A DNA stretch of 34,130 bases from Actinomycetales bacterium (GTDB lineage: Bacteria; Actinomycetota; Actinomycetes; S36-B12), in assembly GCA_016125355.1 (NCBI GenBank), contig WGLX01000041.1, positions 1 to 34,130 on the forward strand, read 5' to 3'. A program made the translations under genes and the position numbers. Position 1 is the first letter of the stretch. The number at the start of each line of letters is the position of its first letter. This document shows, one piece after another, positions 6,819 to 34,130 of the stretch. The notes beneath the pieces are model-generated. The model was not told the DNA's origin and made no database searches. It was given only the letters and a program-made list of their open reading frames with translations.

Positions 6819-6839
6819 GGCCCGATGCTGCCATGCGCG

Positions 6840-6894
6840 AATCCCACCGTCCGCGTCACATCCGGCGGTCGGACGTGACGCGAGGCGTGGGATT
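6840..6894. promoter_or_regulatory. Nested 55-bp inverted repeat upstream of oleA
   Basis: Three pairs of arms share one centre at 6867: AATCCCAC/GTGGGATT (6840-6847, 6887-6894), GCGTCAC/GTGACGC (6853-6859, 6875-6881) and TCCG/CGGA (6861-6864, 6870-6873). Spacings are symmetric on both sides. It sits between the divergent oxidoreductase and oleA genes. It could be an operator, a cruciform or RNA hairpin, or a degraded repeat element. Confidence 0.5.
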
Positions 6895-15375: not shown

Positions 15376-16149
15376 GTGACGAGGCAGACGCGATCGGAGC
15401 GCGACGCGAGGTTCGTCGATCGATTCGGTGTGCTCACCACGGTCACGATCATCACGATCGTGCTCCTCATGCTCTTCAACATCGATCCCGTCGTGGACAA
15501 CACCCTTCGTCAGTGGGAGTCGGTGGTCACGTCGGTGCTGGTGGGCCTCACGCTCGTACTCGCACTGCGGGCCTCGGGCATCCGGTACCGATGGCAGCGG
15601 ATCGGCGATCTCATGGTGATCGTCGCGCTGGTCACGATCACGGCCACGGCGCTGATCGAGACCATCAAGGGGGCACCCATTCTGGGCGACAACGCGACGC
15701 CCGCCCCGCTGTTCGTCGTCATCCTGACGCTGTTCGCACCCGCGGCCGTGATGTTCCGGCTGATGCAGCACCGGAAGGTCACCCGGGGCACCGTTCTCGG
15801 GGCGATCTCGGGCTACCTGCTCATTGCGCTGATGTTCTTCTACCTGTTCCTTGCGGTCAGCCACTTCGAGTCCGGCTTGTTCTTCGGCCAGCCAGAGCCC
15901 ACGCAGTCGTACATGTACTTCAGCCTCGTCACGATCACCACGACCGGCTACGGCGACCTGACCGCGAGCACTGACGTCGGGAGGCTGCTGGCCACCAGTG
16001 AGGCCGTCATCGGGCAGATCTACATGGTGATCTTTGTGGCGATGATCGTCGGCCTGTTCGTCTCGACGCGGCAGAGCATCCGGATGAGCGGCAACCCCGA
16101 CGCGTCCGGTTCGGGAAGCGCTGAGTCGGGGTCATCGGTCGAGCCCTGA
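15376..16149 (+). CDS. Ion channel with potassium selectivity filter
   Basis: A 257-residue membrane protein. Four hydrophobic segments (near residues 18-36, 48-64, 76-94 and 110-128) precede a pore module: a helix near 140-160, a re-entrant loop with the filter TTTGYGDL and a last helix (IYMVIFVAMIVGLFVST). The TTxGYGD filter is the potassium channel signature, so K+ conduction is expected. No voltage-sensor Arg ladder or RCK domain is visible. The short Ser/Gly-rich tail is probably disordered. The start was chosen from the TAGCAT box 6 nt upstream. Confidence 0.87.
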   Translation: MTRQTRSERDARFVDRFGVLTTVTIITIVLLMLFNIDPVVDNTLRQWESVVTSVLVGLTLVLALRASGIRYRWQRIGDLMVIVALVTITATALIETIKGAPILGDNATPAPLFVVILTLFAPAAVMFRLMQHRKVTRGTVLGAISGYLLIALMFFYLFLAVSHFESGLFFGQPEPTQSYMYFSLVTITTTGYGDLTASTDVGRLLATSEAVIGQIYMVIFVAMIVGLFVSTRQSIRMSGNPDASGSGSAESGSSVEP

Positions 16150-16229
16150 GGATCCCGGGCTCGGGCGACAACGGCGTGATCGCATCCCTAGAGTGGGCGC
16201 GAGCATCCATTGCGAGGGAAGGAACGGCC

Positions 16230-16508
16230 ATGGCTGACGACGACATCGAGGTCGGCGAGGAAGTCGACGTGACCGTCGTCCTCGACGACGCGGGCGAGAC
16301 GGTGGGCACGGTGGTGGACGACATCGTCGTCGCGTCGGCACCGGAGGGGTCCATCGTGGACGAGACGATCGACGTCCTCGATTCCGAGGGGCATCTGCTG
16401 CTCGAGGACGAGAAGGTGAGCATCTACGACGAGGATGCGCAGTTGGTGTCCCAGGAGGAGACGATTGCGATCGCGCTCGAGTCCGCGGACGAGGCCGAGG
16501 GCGAGTAG
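16230..16508 (+). CDS. Small, highly acidic protein, unknown function
   Basis: A 92-residue protein with a good ribosome-binding site (GGGAAGGAA) before ATG 16230. It is dominated by Asp, Glu and Val, with almost no Lys or Arg. Alternating short strands such as VDVTVVLDDAGETVGTVV and SIVDETIDVLDSEGHLLL suggest a repeated beta-hairpin unit. No family was recognised. It ends 3 bases before the FucU-like gene, so the two should be co-translated. Cation binding or a charged partner is possible but unsupported. Confidence 0.65.
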   Translation: MADDDIEVGEEVDVTVVLDDAGETVGTVVDDIVVASAPEGSIVDETIDVLDSEGHLLLEDEKVSIYDEDAQLVSQEETIAIALESADEAEGE

Positions 16509-16511
16509 CGC

Positions 16512-16937
16512 GTGCTGAAGGGCATCGACCCGCTGCTCAGCGGCGAGCTGCTGAGGATCCTTGACGACATGGGGCACGGCGACGAGCTCCTGCTCGTGGA
16601 CCGCAACTACCCGGCCGCGTCGTCGGGTCGGCCGGTCGTGCGTCTTGGTGAGGTGTCGGTGGTGCGGGCGGCGACCGCGATCCTCAGCGTGTTCCCGCTC
16701 GACTCGTTCATCGACACCCCGTTGGAGCGGATGGAGGTCGACGAGGACCCGGGCGTCACGACCGCTGCGCAGGACGAGCTCCTCGCCACGGCGCAGGCCG
16801 CCGAGGGCCGGCCGCTGGCATACGGGGTGGTGCCGCGGCTGGACTTCTACCAGCGGGCGCGGGGCGTGTACGCCGTCGTGCATACCCTCGACACCACGCC
16901 CTACAGCTGCTACATCCTCCACAAGGGCGTCATCTGA
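16512..16937 (+). CDS. RbsD/FucU family sugar mutarotase
   Basis: A 141-residue FucU-type enzyme predicted to interconvert anomers of fucose or a similar free sugar before phosphorylation or isomerisation. The N-terminal LKGIDPLLSGELLRILDDMG, His22 of MGHGDEL, the VDRNYP Asp and the C-terminal YAVVHTLDTTPYS...ILHKGVI follow the family, whose active site uses this His, Asp and Tyr. It starts at GTG 3 bases after the acidic-protein gene. Its stop codon lies at the edge of palindromic repeat copy 1, beyond which is a PfkB kinase. The sugar actually used cannot be deduced. Confidence 0.88.
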   Translation: MLKGIDPLLSGELLRILDDMGHGDELLLVDRNYPAASSGRPVVRLGEVSVVRAATAILSVFPLDSFIDTPLERMEVDEDPGVTTAAQDELLATAQAAEGRPLAYGVVPRLDFYQRARGVYAVVHTLDTTPYSCYILHKGVI

Positions 16938-17010
16938 CGAGTTGAACCGCTTCCCGGCTCAAATCTGCAGATTTGAGCCGGTTTCGCGGTCAGACTGCCG
17001 AATTGAACCG
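16936..17010 (+). repeat. 75-bp palindromic repeat, copy 1
   Basis: The core at 16954-16981 is a perfect 28-bp palindrome centred on CTGCAG, with CCGGCTCAAAT as its left arm. Outer words TTGAACCG (16942-16949 and 17003-17010) bound it. It matches the reverse complement of copy 2 in 71 of 75 positions, and copy 3 in 45 of 46 over its left part. It begins in the fucU stop codon and ends just before the kinase ribosome-binding site. Confidence 0.9.
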
Positions 17011-17020
17011 GGTGGAGTCC

Positions 17021-17857
17021 ATGGGATCCGTCGTCGTCATCGCCGGGAAGCTCGTCGTCGACGAGGTGCTGTGGTGTGCGCACGCCGTGACACCGGGCAG
17101 CAACCAGCGGGCGGTGGACGTGCGGCTCACGGGTGGGGGCCAGGTGTGGCATACCGCGCGGGCCATCGCCCGACTGGGAGCACCCGTCCGGGTCACCGGC
17201 TGGGCGGGGGCGGACGCGGACTCGGCACGGCTCCGGGAGGAGCTTCAGGCCGCGGGCGTCGAGGATCGGCTGGTCGCGGCGGGTCGGGCGGTGCGATCCA
17301 CGGTGCTCATCGGTCCTGACGGCGACCGGGCCATCGTGTCGCGCCCCGGCAGCGGGCGCCTCACGGTCGACGCGCTCGACGACGATGTCCTGTCTGAAGC
17401 GTCCGTACTGCACATCGATGCGTACGCGCTCGACGACATCGCGGGCGATGCCTTGATCTCGCTCGCAGAGGATGCGCATCACGCAGGCATCCCGATCAGT
17501 CTCGAGCCACCCGCCGTGCGACGGCTCGACCGCGCCGCCCCCTGGCTGGGTCAGCTGCCGCCGTTGGAGGCGCTCATCGGTCGACCCGACGAAGCGGACG
17601 CCGCGGCGCGACTCCTGGGCGCGGCACCTCGGCTACGCGTGACGCACGACGGTCCGCACGATGTGACCGTCACGGGCGTCGACGCCAGGGTCTCGCTGCC
17701 CGTGCCACCCACGACAGTGGCCACGACGGGCGCGGGTGACCGCTTCGCGGCGGGGTGGCTGGTGGCGTGCGCTCGGGGCGAGGCGATGGAAGAAGCGCTC
17801 GTCCGGGGAGTCGAGGCAGCGCAGGCCCATGCCGAGCCGACGTGGACGAGCGGTTGA
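17021..17857 (+). CDS. PfkB family carbohydrate kinase
   Basis: A 278-residue ribokinase-like kinase. It has VVVIAGKLVVDEV at the N-terminus, LTGGGQVWHTARAIARLG (the usual Gly-Gly sugar-binding signature) near residue 36, and TTGAGDRFAAGW near 236 holding the catalytic Asp. It should transfer phosphate from ATP to a sugar or similar alcohol; the substrate is unknown, and the neighbouring FucU-like gene hints at a monosaccharide. ATG 17021 follows GGTGGAG. The gene is enclosed by two inverted 75-bp repeats, and its own stop codon lies inside copy 2. It looks like a cassette separate from the genes on either side. Confidence 0.87.
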   Translation: MGSVVVIAGKLVVDEVLWCAHAVTPGSNQRAVDVRLTGGGQVWHTARAIARLGAPVRVTGWAGADADSARLREELQAAGVEDRLVAAGRAVRSTVLIGPDGDRAIVSRPGSGRLTVDALDDDVLSEASVLHIDAYALDDIAGDALISLAEDAHHAGIPISLEPPAVRRLDRAAPWLGQLPPLEALIGRPDEADAAARLLGAAPRLRVTHDGPHDVTVTGVDARVSLPVPPTTVATTGAGDRFAAGWLVACARGEAMEEALVRGVEAAQAHAEPTWTSG

Positions 17858-17925
17858 AATCCGCGGTCTGACCGCGAAACCGGCTCAAATCTGCAGATTT
17901 GAGCCGGGAAGCGGTTCAACTCGTC
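17851..17925 (-). repeat. 75-bp palindromic repeat, copy 2 (inverted relative to copy 1)
   Basis: The same element in the opposite orientation, with the perfect 28-bp palindrome at 17880-17907. It lies between the convergent kinase and ferredoxin genes and contains the kinase stop codon (17855-17857). As a strong hairpin it could stop transcription from both sides, though no T run follows. Confidence 0.9.
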
Positions 17926-17943
17926 GGAAGGGGGGGCACCTCG

Positions 17944-18192
17944 CTAGCGCGGAGGTGGGGGCTTCTCGAGGTGGAGGGCCAGCACCGGGCAGGCGTGGGT
18001 CGCGTCGCGGGCGGCGGCCAGGTCCGACTTGGCGATGTTCGCCCGCACCGTGCCGCCGGGCAGCACGGGGTAGCCCCACTCGTCCAGCTCGATGAGGTGC
18101 GGTGCGGCGTCGTGGCACAGCCCCCGTCCATCGCACCGGATCGGGTCCAGCGCGAGAACGGCCGCGGCCTGCTGCGTGGTGGTGCTCGTCAT
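17944..18192 (-). CDS. Small ferredoxin, probably 3Fe-4S
   Basis: An 82-residue electron-transfer protein with RCDGRGLCHDAAPHLIELD near residues 19-37 and a C-terminal ACPVLAL. Three cysteines (CxxxxxC and CP) fit the single-cluster ferredoxins common in actinobacteria, usually with a [3Fe-4S] cluster. Its ATG overlaps the stop of the NuoF-like gene by 4 bases (ATGA), so both are made from one mRNA and the flavoprotein is the likely redox partner. The Pro-rich end (EKPPPPR) may be flexible. Confidence 0.85.
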   Translation of the reverse strand: MTSTTTQQAAAVLALDPIRCDGRGLCHDAAPHLIELDEWGYPVLPGGTVRANIAKSDLAAARDATHACPVLALHLEKPPPPR

Positions 18193-19508
18193 TCGAAGTC
18201 CCTCCCATCGGGATCCATGGCGGTCAGCCGCACGGGGGGCACCGGCAGCGCATGCGCATCGGTCACCGGCCGCCGGCCCACGACGGAGCAGCGGCCGTCG
18301 AGGTGCAGCGCCACCTCGTCGTCGAAGGCAGCGAGCCCGGTGGACACGAAGCGCGCCGTGCCGTCAGGGTGCTTGCAGCCGCCCCGCCCGGTGATCAGGC
18401 CGAGACGCGTGCGCAGCTGCTTCATGCCTGGCTCGTCGAACTGCCGCAGTGCGAGGGCGCGGACGTCATCGGCGACGGTCGGCAGGCCGAACATGCACGG
18501 TCCGCACTGACCGGCACTCTCGCCGGCCATCCACGCGGCCACGCGGGCCATCTCCTCTAGTGGGCAGGTGGTCTCGTCGACGGCCCACAGGATGGACGCG
18601 CCGATCACTCCGCCGGCGTTGCGCACCGAATCGGGATCCCACGCCACGGCGTCGAAGCCGGAGCCCGCGACCCATCCGCCGCCGTAGCCGCCGGTGAGGT
18701 AGCCGCGGATGGGACCGGTCGGTCCGCCGCACAGCGCCAGGATGTCCGCGACGGACGTGCCCGTCGGCACCTCGACGATGCCCGGACGGGCCACGCCGCC
18801 GCCGACGGTCACGAGGGTCGTGCCGGGGGCCGACGCCGCACCCACCGTGGAGTACCAGCTCCCGCCATGACGGGCGATGAGGGCCATGTGCGCGAGAGTC
18901 TCGGCGTTCTGCACGAGCGTTGGCCGCCCGGCTGCGCCGCGCTGGAAGGGCCGGTCGGGGTAGACCGGGGTCCCGATGCCATCGCCCACCCAGTGCGACA
19001 AGGCCGACTCCTCGCTGGAGACGTACCGCGCGGGCGGGGTGACCAGGGTGATCGGCACATCGTCGACGCGGGCCGCGGCCCGCTCATACAGGGCCCGCTC
19101 GAGGACTCCGATGGACGGGGAGCCGCGGTGCACGGCGAGGAAGGCATCGGTGGCCCCGACGGTCTGGGCTGCCGCCTGGATGCCGTCCAGCACGAGGTGC
19201 GGTGACGCAGCGAGCAGGACCTCGTCCTTGCTGCTCGCGGGCTCGCCCTCCATGGCGTTGCCGATGACGACCGGCTGGCGGGTGCGGCTGAGCCGGCCCC
19301 GCTCATGTGAGCTCTTCACCACGGCGCGCAGCTTCAGGTGCGTCGGGAACCAGCCGCCGCCACGTCCACGAAGGCCTGCCCTCTCGACCTCGTCGACGAG
19401 CCCGCCGGGGCTGCCGCCGTGCCGCTTCGGAAGGGTCGGCAGCGGCCCGTGCTGATCGCGGTGCGCCGCCAGGGAGGAGGGGGTGTCGAGTCCCAGTCGT
19501 CCGGCCAT
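18189..19508 (-). CDS. NuoF-like NADH-binding flavoprotein
   Basis: A 439-residue relative of the 51-kDa NADH dehydrogenase subunit (NuoF). It has the FMN-site motif LRGRGGGWFPTHLKL, an NAMEGEPASSKDEVLL segment, YVSSEESALSHWVGDG, QNAETLAH and a C-terminal iron-sulfur region ESAGQCGPCMFG with a later GRGGCKHPDG. In true NuoF the cluster motif starts with Cys, where this protein has Ala, leaving three likely ligands. No other complex I genes are near. It probably passes electrons between NAD(P)H and the overlapping ferredoxin. The start is uncertain: ATG 19508 is conservative, while TTG 19556 or GTG 19595 would add an N-terminal LLLTPF-like stretch seen in relatives. Confidence 0.85.
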   Translation of the reverse strand: MAGRLGLDTPSSLAAHRDQHGPLPTLPKRHGGSPGGLVDEVERAGLRGRGGGWFPTHLKLRAVVKSSHERGRLSRTRQPVVIGNAMEGEPASSKDEVLLAASPHLVLDGIQAAAQTVGATDAFLAVHRGSPSIGVLERALYERAAARVDDVPITLVTPPARYVSSEESALSHWVGDGIGTPVYPDRPFQRGAAGRPTLVQNAETLAHMALIARHGGSWYSTVGAASAPGTTLVTVGGGVARPGIVEVPTGTSVADILALCGGPTGPIRGYLTGGYGGGWVAGSGFDAVAWDPDSVRNAGGVIGASILWAVDETTCPLEEMARVAAWMAGESAGQCGPCMFGLPTVADDVRALALRQFDEPGMKQLRTRLGLITGRGGCKHPDGTARFVSTGLAAFDDEVALHLDGRCSVVGRRPVTDAHALPVPPVRLTAMDPDGRDFE

Positions 19509-20982: not shown

Positions 20983-21040
20983 CGACTGCTCCGTCTTTCG
21001 TCACAAGGGCCACCCGTTGCGACGAAAGACGTAGCAGTCG
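20983..21040. other. Long stem-loop between xylB and xylA
   Basis: Two 20-nt arms (20983-21002 and 21021-21040; left arm starts CGACTGCTCCGTC) pair at 19 of 20 positions around an 18-nt loop. It begins 6 bases after the xylB stop. It could end or attenuate xylB transcription, protect the mRNA, or be a copy of a palindromic repeat. No T run follows, so a classic terminator is not shown. Confidence 0.65.
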
Positions 21041-33164: not shown

Positions 33165-33962
33165 ATGAGCCTGCGTCGCCCGCTGCGGACCGTCCTCGCG
33201 CCGCTCCTCGCGCTGGTCGTCGGGCTGCTGCTTCTCGGCGTGCGTCCCGCTGCGGCGGATGCGCTCATCGTCTCGGCTGACGGCCAGCGCCAGTGGATCT
33301 CCTGCGCAGGGGAGGGCGGGCCGACGGCTGTCCTCATCAACGGTCTCGGCAGCTCGCACACCATCTGGTCGCCAGTCCTCAAGCGGCTGGAGTCCCGAAC
33401 GCGGGTATGCGTGACGGACCGGCCGGGGCTGGGGAGCAGCCCGCCGCGGGTCGGCTCGCGCCGGACGGACGCGGGGGAGCATGCCCGGGAGCTGTCCGCC
33501 GCGCTCGTGGCGGCGGGCGAGAAGGGACCGTACCTGCTGATCGCGCATTCGTACGGCGGCCTCATCGGTCGGGCCTTCGCGGCGCAGCGGCCGGGGGAGG
33601 TCGCCGGTCTGATGCTCGTCGATGCGGTGTACCCGGGGATCCAGCGGACCTTCCTGCCGAGCTACCGGGGTGACTGGCACGAGGGCGGCACCGTCATCGA
33701 CATGGATGCCAGCGAGCGGGCGACGCGGGGCGGACCGGACCTGGGGTCGACCCCGCTCGTGGTGCTGACAGCCGGCAAGCCCGGCAACGGCTCCTCGTGG
33801 GCGGACCGGAAGTGGAACCGCGAGCAGCGGAAGGCGGCGTCGCTGTCCGACGTCAGCGTGCACTGGTTCGCCCGCAAGTCCGGGCACGTGATCCAGCACG
33901 ACCAGCCCGGCCGCGTGGTGGCCGCCTTGGACTGGCTTCTCGCCCACCAGCCGACGAGTTGA
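33165..33962 (+). CDS. Exported alpha/beta hydrolase
   Basis: A 265-residue hydrolase with an N-terminal signal peptide (APLLALVVGLLLLGVRPAAA). The fold has an oxyanion-loop motif LINGLGSSHTIW near residue 57, nucleophile Ser129 in AHSYGG, a likely acid Asp and His241 in SGHVIQHDQP. It is probably secreted or released from the membrane and cleaves an ester or amide; the substrate is unknown. The last three codons (Thr, Ser, stop) lie inside palindromic repeat copy 3, so the repeat has set the C-terminus. ATG 33165 is preferred over an in-frame start at 33147. Confidence 0.85.
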   Translation: MSLRRPLRTVLAPLLALVVGLLLLGVRPAAADALIVSADGQRQWISCAGEGGPTAVLINGLGSSHTIWSPVLKRLESRTRVCVTDRPGLGSSPPRVGSRRTDAGEHARELSAALVAAGEKGPYLLIAHSYGGLIGRAFAAQRPGEVAGLMLVDAVYPGIQRTFLPSYRGDWHEGGTVIDMDASERATRGGPDLGSTPLVVLTAGKPGNGSSWADRKWNREQRKAASLSDVSVHWFARKSGHVIQHDQPGRVVAALDWLLAHQPTS

Positions 33963-33998
33963 ACCGCTTCCCGGCTCAAATCTGCAGAGTTGAGCCGG
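33953..33998 (+). repeat. Palindromic repeat, copy 3 (truncated)
   Basis: It matches copy 1 in 45 of 46 positions and then stops abruptly at the right end of the palindrome (33971-33998), where copies 1 and 2 carry on for 29 more bases. One change (G at 33989) breaks the symmetry. The IS110-type stop codon lies 16 bases further on. It contains the hydrolase stop codon. Confidence 0.85.
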
Positions 33999-34130
33999 GA
34001 TTCTTCTATTTCCGTCAAGTGGCCAGGGCTGGCTCGCGCATGAGGGTTCGGTGAAGCTTCTTGGTGAGGTGTCGCTTGGCGCAGCGCATGGCCTCGCGCT
34101 TGGTCTTGCCCTCGGCGATGCGGCGGGCGA
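33999..34130 (-). mobile_element. End of an IS110-type element (runs off the right edge)
   Basis: The minus strand encodes the C-terminus of an IS110-family recombinase, and the palindromic repeat is interrupted just outside it. The boundary at about 33999 is inferred from where copy 3 stops matching its relatives. The rest of the element lies beyond the window. Confidence 0.5.
34015..34130 (-). CDS. IS110-type recombinase, C-terminal fragment (cut by window edge)
   Basis: The minus strand is open from the window edge to a TGA at 34017-34015. The 37 visible residues include ARRIAEGKTKREAMRCAKRH, a Lys/Arg-rich end that closely follows the C-termini of IS110-family transposases (Transposase_20 domain). 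The DEDD catalytic part is outside the window, so intactness is unknown. Some IS110 elements use a bridge RNA made from the element's own non-coding end to choose a target. The call rests on a short but characteristic segment. Confidence 0.65.
   Translation of the reverse strand, partial: ARRIAEGKTKREAMRCAKRHLTKKLHRTLMREPALAT

Follow-up and report, generated by a model that had tools for sequence, protein, structure and literature searches.

A PfkB-family kinase gene between inverted palindromic arms as a probable passenger of a mobile element associated with AbiEi-DUF559 nucleases

Why should a single sugar kinase gene lie tightly between two long inverted repeats? The question is raised by a stretch of DNA of 34,130 nucleotides from an Actinomycetales bacterium, the whole of which is called the window here. 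An inverted-repeat search of positions 16000-19000 returns one dominant pair, at 16933-17010 and 17851-17928 (78 nt, 94% complementary, spacing 840 nt), and its runner-up is a repeat of 26 nt at 77%. The first-pass annotation had described near-identical 75-bp inverted repeats enclosing a pfkB gene, a description that is borne out with arms of 78 bp. The relevant features are as follows.

6838-6893, unstranded: stretch like an arm of nuclease element C5:18057-18983 (79% over 57 nt, E = 2e-6; the weaker match of its kind)
16512-16937, + strand: left neighbour, fucU/rbsD (PF05025), whose TGA touches the left arm
16933-17010, + strand: left arm, with outer core GAGTTGAACCGCTTCCCGG at 16939-16957 and hairpin at 16954-16981, aligned with 35 other arms of the genome
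17011-17850, unstranded: putative cargo, the 840 nt that separate the arms, GC 0.73
17021-17857, + strand: probable passenger gene, a PfkB-family sugar kinase of 278 aa (PF00294, E = 2.4e-21)
17851-17928, - strand: right arm, an inverted copy, with core at 17904-17922 and hairpin at 17880-17907
17944-18192, - strand: right neighbour, ferredoxin-like ORF (name by resemblance only), convergent with fucU
18189-19508, - strand: NuoF-like ORF after the ferredoxin-like ORF (name by resemblance only)
20983-21040, unstranded: solo hairpin between xylB and xylA, resembling the arms of nuclease element C19:102336-103244 (82% over 56 nt, E = 5.6e-11)
33953-34000, + strand: third arm copy, ending abruptly after its hairpin

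The pfkB ATG at 17021 stands 10 nt inward of the left arm and is preceded, just inside that arm, by GGTGGAG; the TGA ends at 17857, already within the right arm at its inner edge. The translation contains the TGAGD (GAGD) motif, and all 13 of its NCBIfam matches lie far under their cut-offs. Inside each arm is a 24-nt palindrome (at most three mismatches) that is found three times in the window, compared with 0.00 expected from window shuffles, and its third copy lies at 33973-33996. Each arm of the kinase cassette is predicted to form a hairpin, with single-strand DNA fold z-scores of -4.0 and -6.0. The window has no match in Rfam at the gathering score.

Related genomes have a different arrangement at this site. 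Among 13 congeners, some of whose genomes are only 73-85% complete, the best match to pfkB has 34% identity and two have no match at all. The fucU gene is present in eight of the 13 (70-82% identity). In six of these eight, fucU meets the convergent ferredoxin-like and NuoF-like genes with pfkB absent; three have at most 34 nt in between, and three have a single intervening ORF of 76-81 aa. In the remaining two of the eight, xylB follows fucU. Because the best congener kinase is so distant and the flanking operons abut in six of the eight genomes with fucU, the comparison shows the pfkB unit to be an insertion between two operons that adjoin in congeners. The annotation had proposed a mobilisable cassette or a MITE-captured gene, and this proposal is supported by the multicopy arm family, the lack of a close kinase homolog in congeners and the uninserted site there. 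A kinase fixed here in relatives that lack the repeats, which the annotation had named as evidence to the contrary, was not found: the kinase is missing from this site in all eight congeners with fucU. Beyond the genus, 394 genomes of the class contain one pfkB homolog at E <= 1e-25 (50% identity) besides the gene itself; it adjoins a bioY-like gene and has no flanking repeats.

The arms belong to a family that is dispersed through the genome of the window (G000; 3.34 Mb, 45 contigs, 96% complete). One arm used as a query against this genome gives 82 matching pieces, counting the reverse self-matches of the palindrome. The 19-bp core occurs in 62 copies (59 exact and three with one change), with 35 on the forward and 27 on the reverse strand, and a reversed control gives none. 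All 23 neighbouring core pairs less than 2.5 kb apart are ordered + then - (convergent), and no other order is found. Their spans range from 88 to 1193 bp. Ten pairs measure 88 bp exactly, eight fall in the range 178-248 bp, and the other five measure 474, 564, 984, 998 and 1193 bp. A further long pair, on contig C15, has a right arm broken by an IS30-like insertion. As judged by reading, the arms are built of dyads of about 30 nt around the motif TTGAACCGC; the 88-bp copies have three dyads and the longer copies five, with the middle dyad split by the interior. The outer 19 columns are almost invariant across 36 aligned arms. In the inner hairpin the variation is compensatory (21 double-changed cells against a shuffle mean of 8.2, with none of 500 shuffles reaching 21); the number of pairs with a double change is four, which 40 of 500 shuffles reach, and two of the five measures are unexceptional. 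Several full arms have no partner. An exact-pattern scan of wider genome contigs for the arm core plus five positions gave no match, in a set from which records near the window's genome may be absent.

Other long pairs enclose an AbiEi/DUF559 protein (called the nuclease below), a HEAT-repeat protein, a DUF4440 protein and an MpaB/DUF2236-like protein. Gene orientation differs between pairs: pfkB and the nuclease gene are on the + strand, and the HEAT and DUF4440 genes on the - strand, which does not by itself show switching. At the nuclease-gene site the gene is absent in all seven congeners compared, of which G003 has an 88-bp gene-free copy, G013 has another ORF, and five have neither and a short gap. 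At the HEAT site the gene and the arms are absent in all 12 congeners compared. The DUF4440 gene is missing from its site in all six, one of which (G005) has two arms there, separated by a short spacer and no gene. When these 25 stretches, taken only from congeners in which both flanking genes were found close together, were searched with a profile, arms were located in G003 and G005 only, and tblastn of the nuclease, HEAT and DUF4440 proteins against the same stretches found none of them. This comparison shows an insertion at each of the three sites. The DUF2236 gene between the C15 arms is native, since it adjoins the same protease-like gene in congeners; the idea that every arm pair carries foreign cargo is rejected for this reason, and the simple model in which every interior is cargo is disfavoured.

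Could the arms instead be REP/BIME-like regulatory hairpins at gene ends, serving as terminators or in mRNA 3' protection, with pfkB brought in by ordinary horizontal transfer and located between two of them by chance? For 41 of 52 arms, a stop codon facing the arm is found at -20 to 60 nt, as would be expected of terminator-like hairpins, but some arms are on the 5' side of genes. Good folding, single arms and a native gene between arms would also fit such hairpins; the common +/- order of all 23 close pairs would not, nor would an outer core conserved more than a stem requires. Four unrelated arm-enclosed genes, moreover, are absent from their sites in the congeners compared. We consider this explanation fairly unlikely.

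Only one gene recurs between arms across species, the nuclease gene; no other recurring gene is present in the pairs seen. It also occurs in G003, G004 and G005 (56-61% identical), in each case between arms of the same family, and among the core pairs listed for these three genomes the only pair longer than 250 bp holds it. The four species with such a nuclease have an era-like neighbour in three cases and a prenyl-synthase-like neighbour in the window's genome (names by resemblance). More distant nuclease paralogs of the genus also lie between palindromes, which differ in sequence but are alike in architecture.

Enclosure was scored by comparing the left flank with the reverse-complemented right flank in blastn and taking the best match, with a threshold of at least 30 bits. 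The genus and other genera of the order provided 61 nuclease loci, of which three with less than 120 bases of flank were left unscored; 48 of the other 58 reach the threshold, with sequence shared within two locus pairs (L112/L117 and L124/L125). The corresponding value for control genes is 0 of 185, after removal of five of 190 that score at least 30 bits and are all known positives (pfkB in two overlapping loci, the nuclease gene, HEAT and a nuclease paralog). At 25 bits the counts are 50 of 58 and 18 of 190. In a second set from named genomes, consisting of 50 loci chosen by hand from 80 (genes already seen or incomplete were left out, and L185 repeats a locus of the first set), 33 of 50 nuclease loci score at least 30 bits, against 0 of 103 controls. 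Positives in the second set include Leifsonia, Williamsia, Rhodococcoides, Haloechinothrix, Propionicicella and Planctomonas, while Gordonia asplenii, Kitasatospora and three of five Leifsonia loci are among the negatives. Nuclease genes without a flanking repeat at 30 bits number 10 of 58 and 17 of 50 in the two sets. The associated p-values (p = 3e-41 and p = 3e-21) overstate independence because the genes are related by descent. Both sets show that most genes of the nuclease family, in this order as in other Actinomycetota, have long inverted palindromes on either side. At least 533 relatives of these AbiEi_4-DUF559 genes are listed from actinobacterial genomes, and within this order 48 genomes out of 119 have one at E <= 1e-15.

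Dispersed arms and nuclease subfamilies have the same distribution within the genus. Among 14 genomes, the family-1 core has 62 copies in G000, 13 in G003, 10 in G004 and 8 in G005, and none in the other ten; the same four genomes are the only ones whose nuclease reaches 56% identity or more with that of G000, the next best being 44%. Family-1 cores are thus found in 4/4 genomes with this nuclease versus 0/10 without it. The core variant also matches the nuclease's own arms in three genomes: G004 has -ATCC/-GTCC in 10 of 10 copies, G005 has -GCACC in 7 of 8, and G000 has GAGTTGAACC in 59 of 62, while the G003 core is mixed, with no single variant. A second palindrome pattern, CGTTTSTCCC...CGGGANAA, has 51, 36, 34, 33, 31, 22 and 7 matches in G008, G006, G011, G007, G013, G004 and G000, numbers that exceed the count of sites because both palindrome strands are read and the nuclease's own arms are included. 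Those seven genomes hold a nuclease with such arms (L121, L112, L117, L118, L119, L120 and L161), and the other seven have 0-2 matches. For this family 2, taken as at least seven pattern matches, the split is 7/7 genomes with its nuclease versus 0/7 without. Fisher tests give p = 0.001 (family 1) and p = 0.0006 (family 2), uncorrected for phylogeny and at limits chosen once the data had been seen. The comparison shows that each nuclease subfamily and its matching dispersed arms coincide among congeners.

The nuclease protein matches AbiEi_4 in Pfam (E = 6e-11), and DUF559 falls just under the cut-off (E = 6e-4). PADLOC AbiEi models match all four nuclease proteins tried, and NCBIfam and PHROGs assign no family to four nuclease proteins at E <= 0.01. 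An alignment of 48 sequences of the C-terminal domain has invariant E269, D271 and K275, and D258 is present in 90% or more. An AF2 model of the G004 homolog (pLDDT 92.9) places residues 7-218 close to the AbiEi antitoxin 6y8q (Z = 12.0, rmsd 5.2 over 183 residues). Residues 221-327 of the model resemble the catalytic domain of the I-Bth0305I homing endonuclease (Z = 11.3, rmsd 2.6 over 95), the DUF559-like protein 3hrl (Z = 11.4) and Vsr (Z = 10.0); among these structural matches, sequence search recovers only 3hrl. The predicted fold is an AbiEi-type winged helix joined to a DUF559/Vsr-like nuclease domain.

The region upstream of the gene often contains TGTGGA[TC], frequently as CTGTGGATAAC, which resembles the DnaA-box consensus. 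Of 106 nuclease loci (L109-L260; four loci of undefined strand were dropped, and some genes are entered twice), 59 have this motif in the 260 nt that precede the gene, whereas it is present in 13 of 382 upstream regions of controls and in 0 of 106 regions downstream.

An N-terminal AbiEi antitoxin fold and the PADLOC matches might also indicate that AbiEi-DUF559 is a regulator or a defence gene of toxin-antitoxin type, with the palindromes as its operators and the dispersed copies spread by a separate agent, a transposase. Passages of a published report (PMC3985639) describe AbiEi binding inverted repeats at its promoter, and binding of palindromes for regulation only is conceivable. The palindromes lie at both ends of the gene, however, and this, the coincidence of nuclease subfamily with matching dispersed arms among congeners, and the lack of any other gene recurring between arms in the pairs seen make this interpretation quite unlikely. 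That the segment is an invertible switch turning the kinase on and off, as inverted 78-bp arms of 94% identity might suggest and as the annotation had offered among its options, is very improbable, since the arm family is found across the genome in one arrangement around many different interiors and so is not specific to the kinase.

The unit that holds pfkB is probably a non-autonomous copy of a mobile element with palindromic ends, and the gene its passenger. Such a system would resemble REP/RAYT but employ an unrelated enzyme; all comparisons are between assemblies, many of them incomplete, and movement is inferred from these. In such an element the winged helix would bind the palindromic dyads of the arms, and the Vsr-like nuclease domain would cut at element ends or targets. 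Repair or strand transfer could then spread the element, as in homing. In an autonomous copy the arms would enclose the nuclease; in non-autonomous copies they would stand alone or enclose a short spacer or a foreign gene such as pfkB. A foreign gene might enter by insertion into an existing pair or by interior exchange through recombination between arms.

REPINs are inverted pairs of repeats, and in REPtrons the enzyme gene is flanked by its own repeats. In REP/REPIN systems with TnpA-REP (RAYT), dispersed palindromic repeats have co-evolved with a dedicated enzyme (PMC8266576). The palindromes here are likewise dispersed and partly arranged as inverted pairs, so the combination of dispersed palindromes with a dedicated enzyme follows a known logic. 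The enzyme type differs, being an AbiEi winged helix with a Vsr-like nuclease instead of the HUH/Y1 transposase of RAYT, and the arms are about 78 bp of tandem dyads whose pairs carry foreign genes. The Y1/HUH transposase PF01797 has no match in the window's genome (96% complete), although the control is positive in five of 14 genomes. The RAYT hypothesis is rejected on this basis, and because the defining transposase is absent the system is not a REPtron.

Homing endonucleases of the Vsr-like I-Bth0305I type share with the nuclease the modelled catalytic fold, conserved acidic residues, and a gene that is present at a given site in some species and missing in others. They differ in that the nuclease here lies within palindromic arms, has many gene-free copies and carries an N-terminal AbiEi fold. 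The AbiE type IV toxin-antitoxin systems have in common with it the modelled AbiEi fold and inverted repeats beside the gene, but the joined nuclease domain sets it apart, as do palindromes that are both at the two ends and dispersed, and neighbours of the nuclease gene in fetched loci that look unrelated (gene calls, by eye).

MITEs and mobile insertion cassettes have long inverted ends around one unrelated passenger gene and no transposase of their own. The kinase cassette is similar in having terminal inverted repeats that are multicopy and shared with a candidate autonomous copy. It is dissimilar in that no parent transposon of known type is identified and its ends are hairpins of tandem dyads. 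No clear direct target duplication is seen by eye at the outer edges of the arms, where a C-run stands on the left and a G-run on the right, and congeners are too diverged to fix the exact junction. As for integron gene cassettes, which have attC sites and an integron integrase, the arms here stand in inverted pairs.

A broader proposal, which we hold to be about as likely as not, is that a large class of palindrome-ended elements in Actinomycetota owes its mobility to AbiEi_4-DUF559 proteins. Each protein would recognise a 60-80-bp palindromic arm of its own, spread gene-free copies within the genome and occasionally carry a single foreign gene (kinase, HEAT-repeat, DUF4440) between arms. It would thus act as a gene-cassette system driven by a homing-endonuclease-type engine, possibly timed to replication through the DnaA-box-like promoter motif. 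These genes are common in actinobacterial genomes, and Pfam offers just antitoxin-like and DUF names for them. If the proposal is true, then a large set of AbiEi_4-DUF559 genes would be explained and a second, unrelated enzyme would join RAYT as a mover of REP-like repeats. A route of single-gene transfer between freshwater actinobacteria would also become testable, freshwater being what we take to be the habitat of the group to which the source organism belongs. Among open papers, as represented by titles and the starts of abstracts (subscription papers and preprints being outside this scope), none was found that links DUF559 or AbiEi-DUF559 proteins to mobile palindromic repeats. In the passages of PMC12915292 where "AbiEi" and "inverted repeats" appear, the terms are used for unrelated things.

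Several smaller observations concern the interiors, sites and arms. The short interiors resemble neither the nuclease gene nor one another, except for one pair, and their origin as deletion derivatives of the nuclease gene is rejected since no similarity was found. The exceptional pair is formed by short elements L041 and L053, whose interiors are 84% alike over 25 nt, a hint that units may take their spacer along when they move. The G013 ORF at the nuclease-element site is 829 aa long (L263 808-3297, G013:C369), and this site, as compared between the window's genome, G003 and G013, is a possible insertion hot spot. An IS30-like element (HTH_38 match) lies in arms at the CTGCAG centre or the inner dyad and breaks the assembly at the ends of C9, C34, C20 and C15. 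A second IS lies in arms after the hairpin and breaks the assembly at the ends of C4, C5, C8 (33998 onward) and C41; it has no Pfam match, and its end is presumably IS110-like. The sequence from the third arm copy of the window to the contig end is also found at three of these other contig ends (C4, C5 and C41) and is presumably IS110-like.

Nuclease elements close to those of this order were also found in public metagenome-assembled genome records titled Bifidobacterium breve (L184-L186, L188, L191 and L192; CAMCSO01, CAMDKQ01, CAMAWO01 and CALPZT02), and these titles look wrong. Within the window's own genome, L039 2090-2145 resembles the arms of other nuclease elements (the C19 and C5 copies), as do the solo hairpin between xylB and xylA and the weaker match at 6838-6893.
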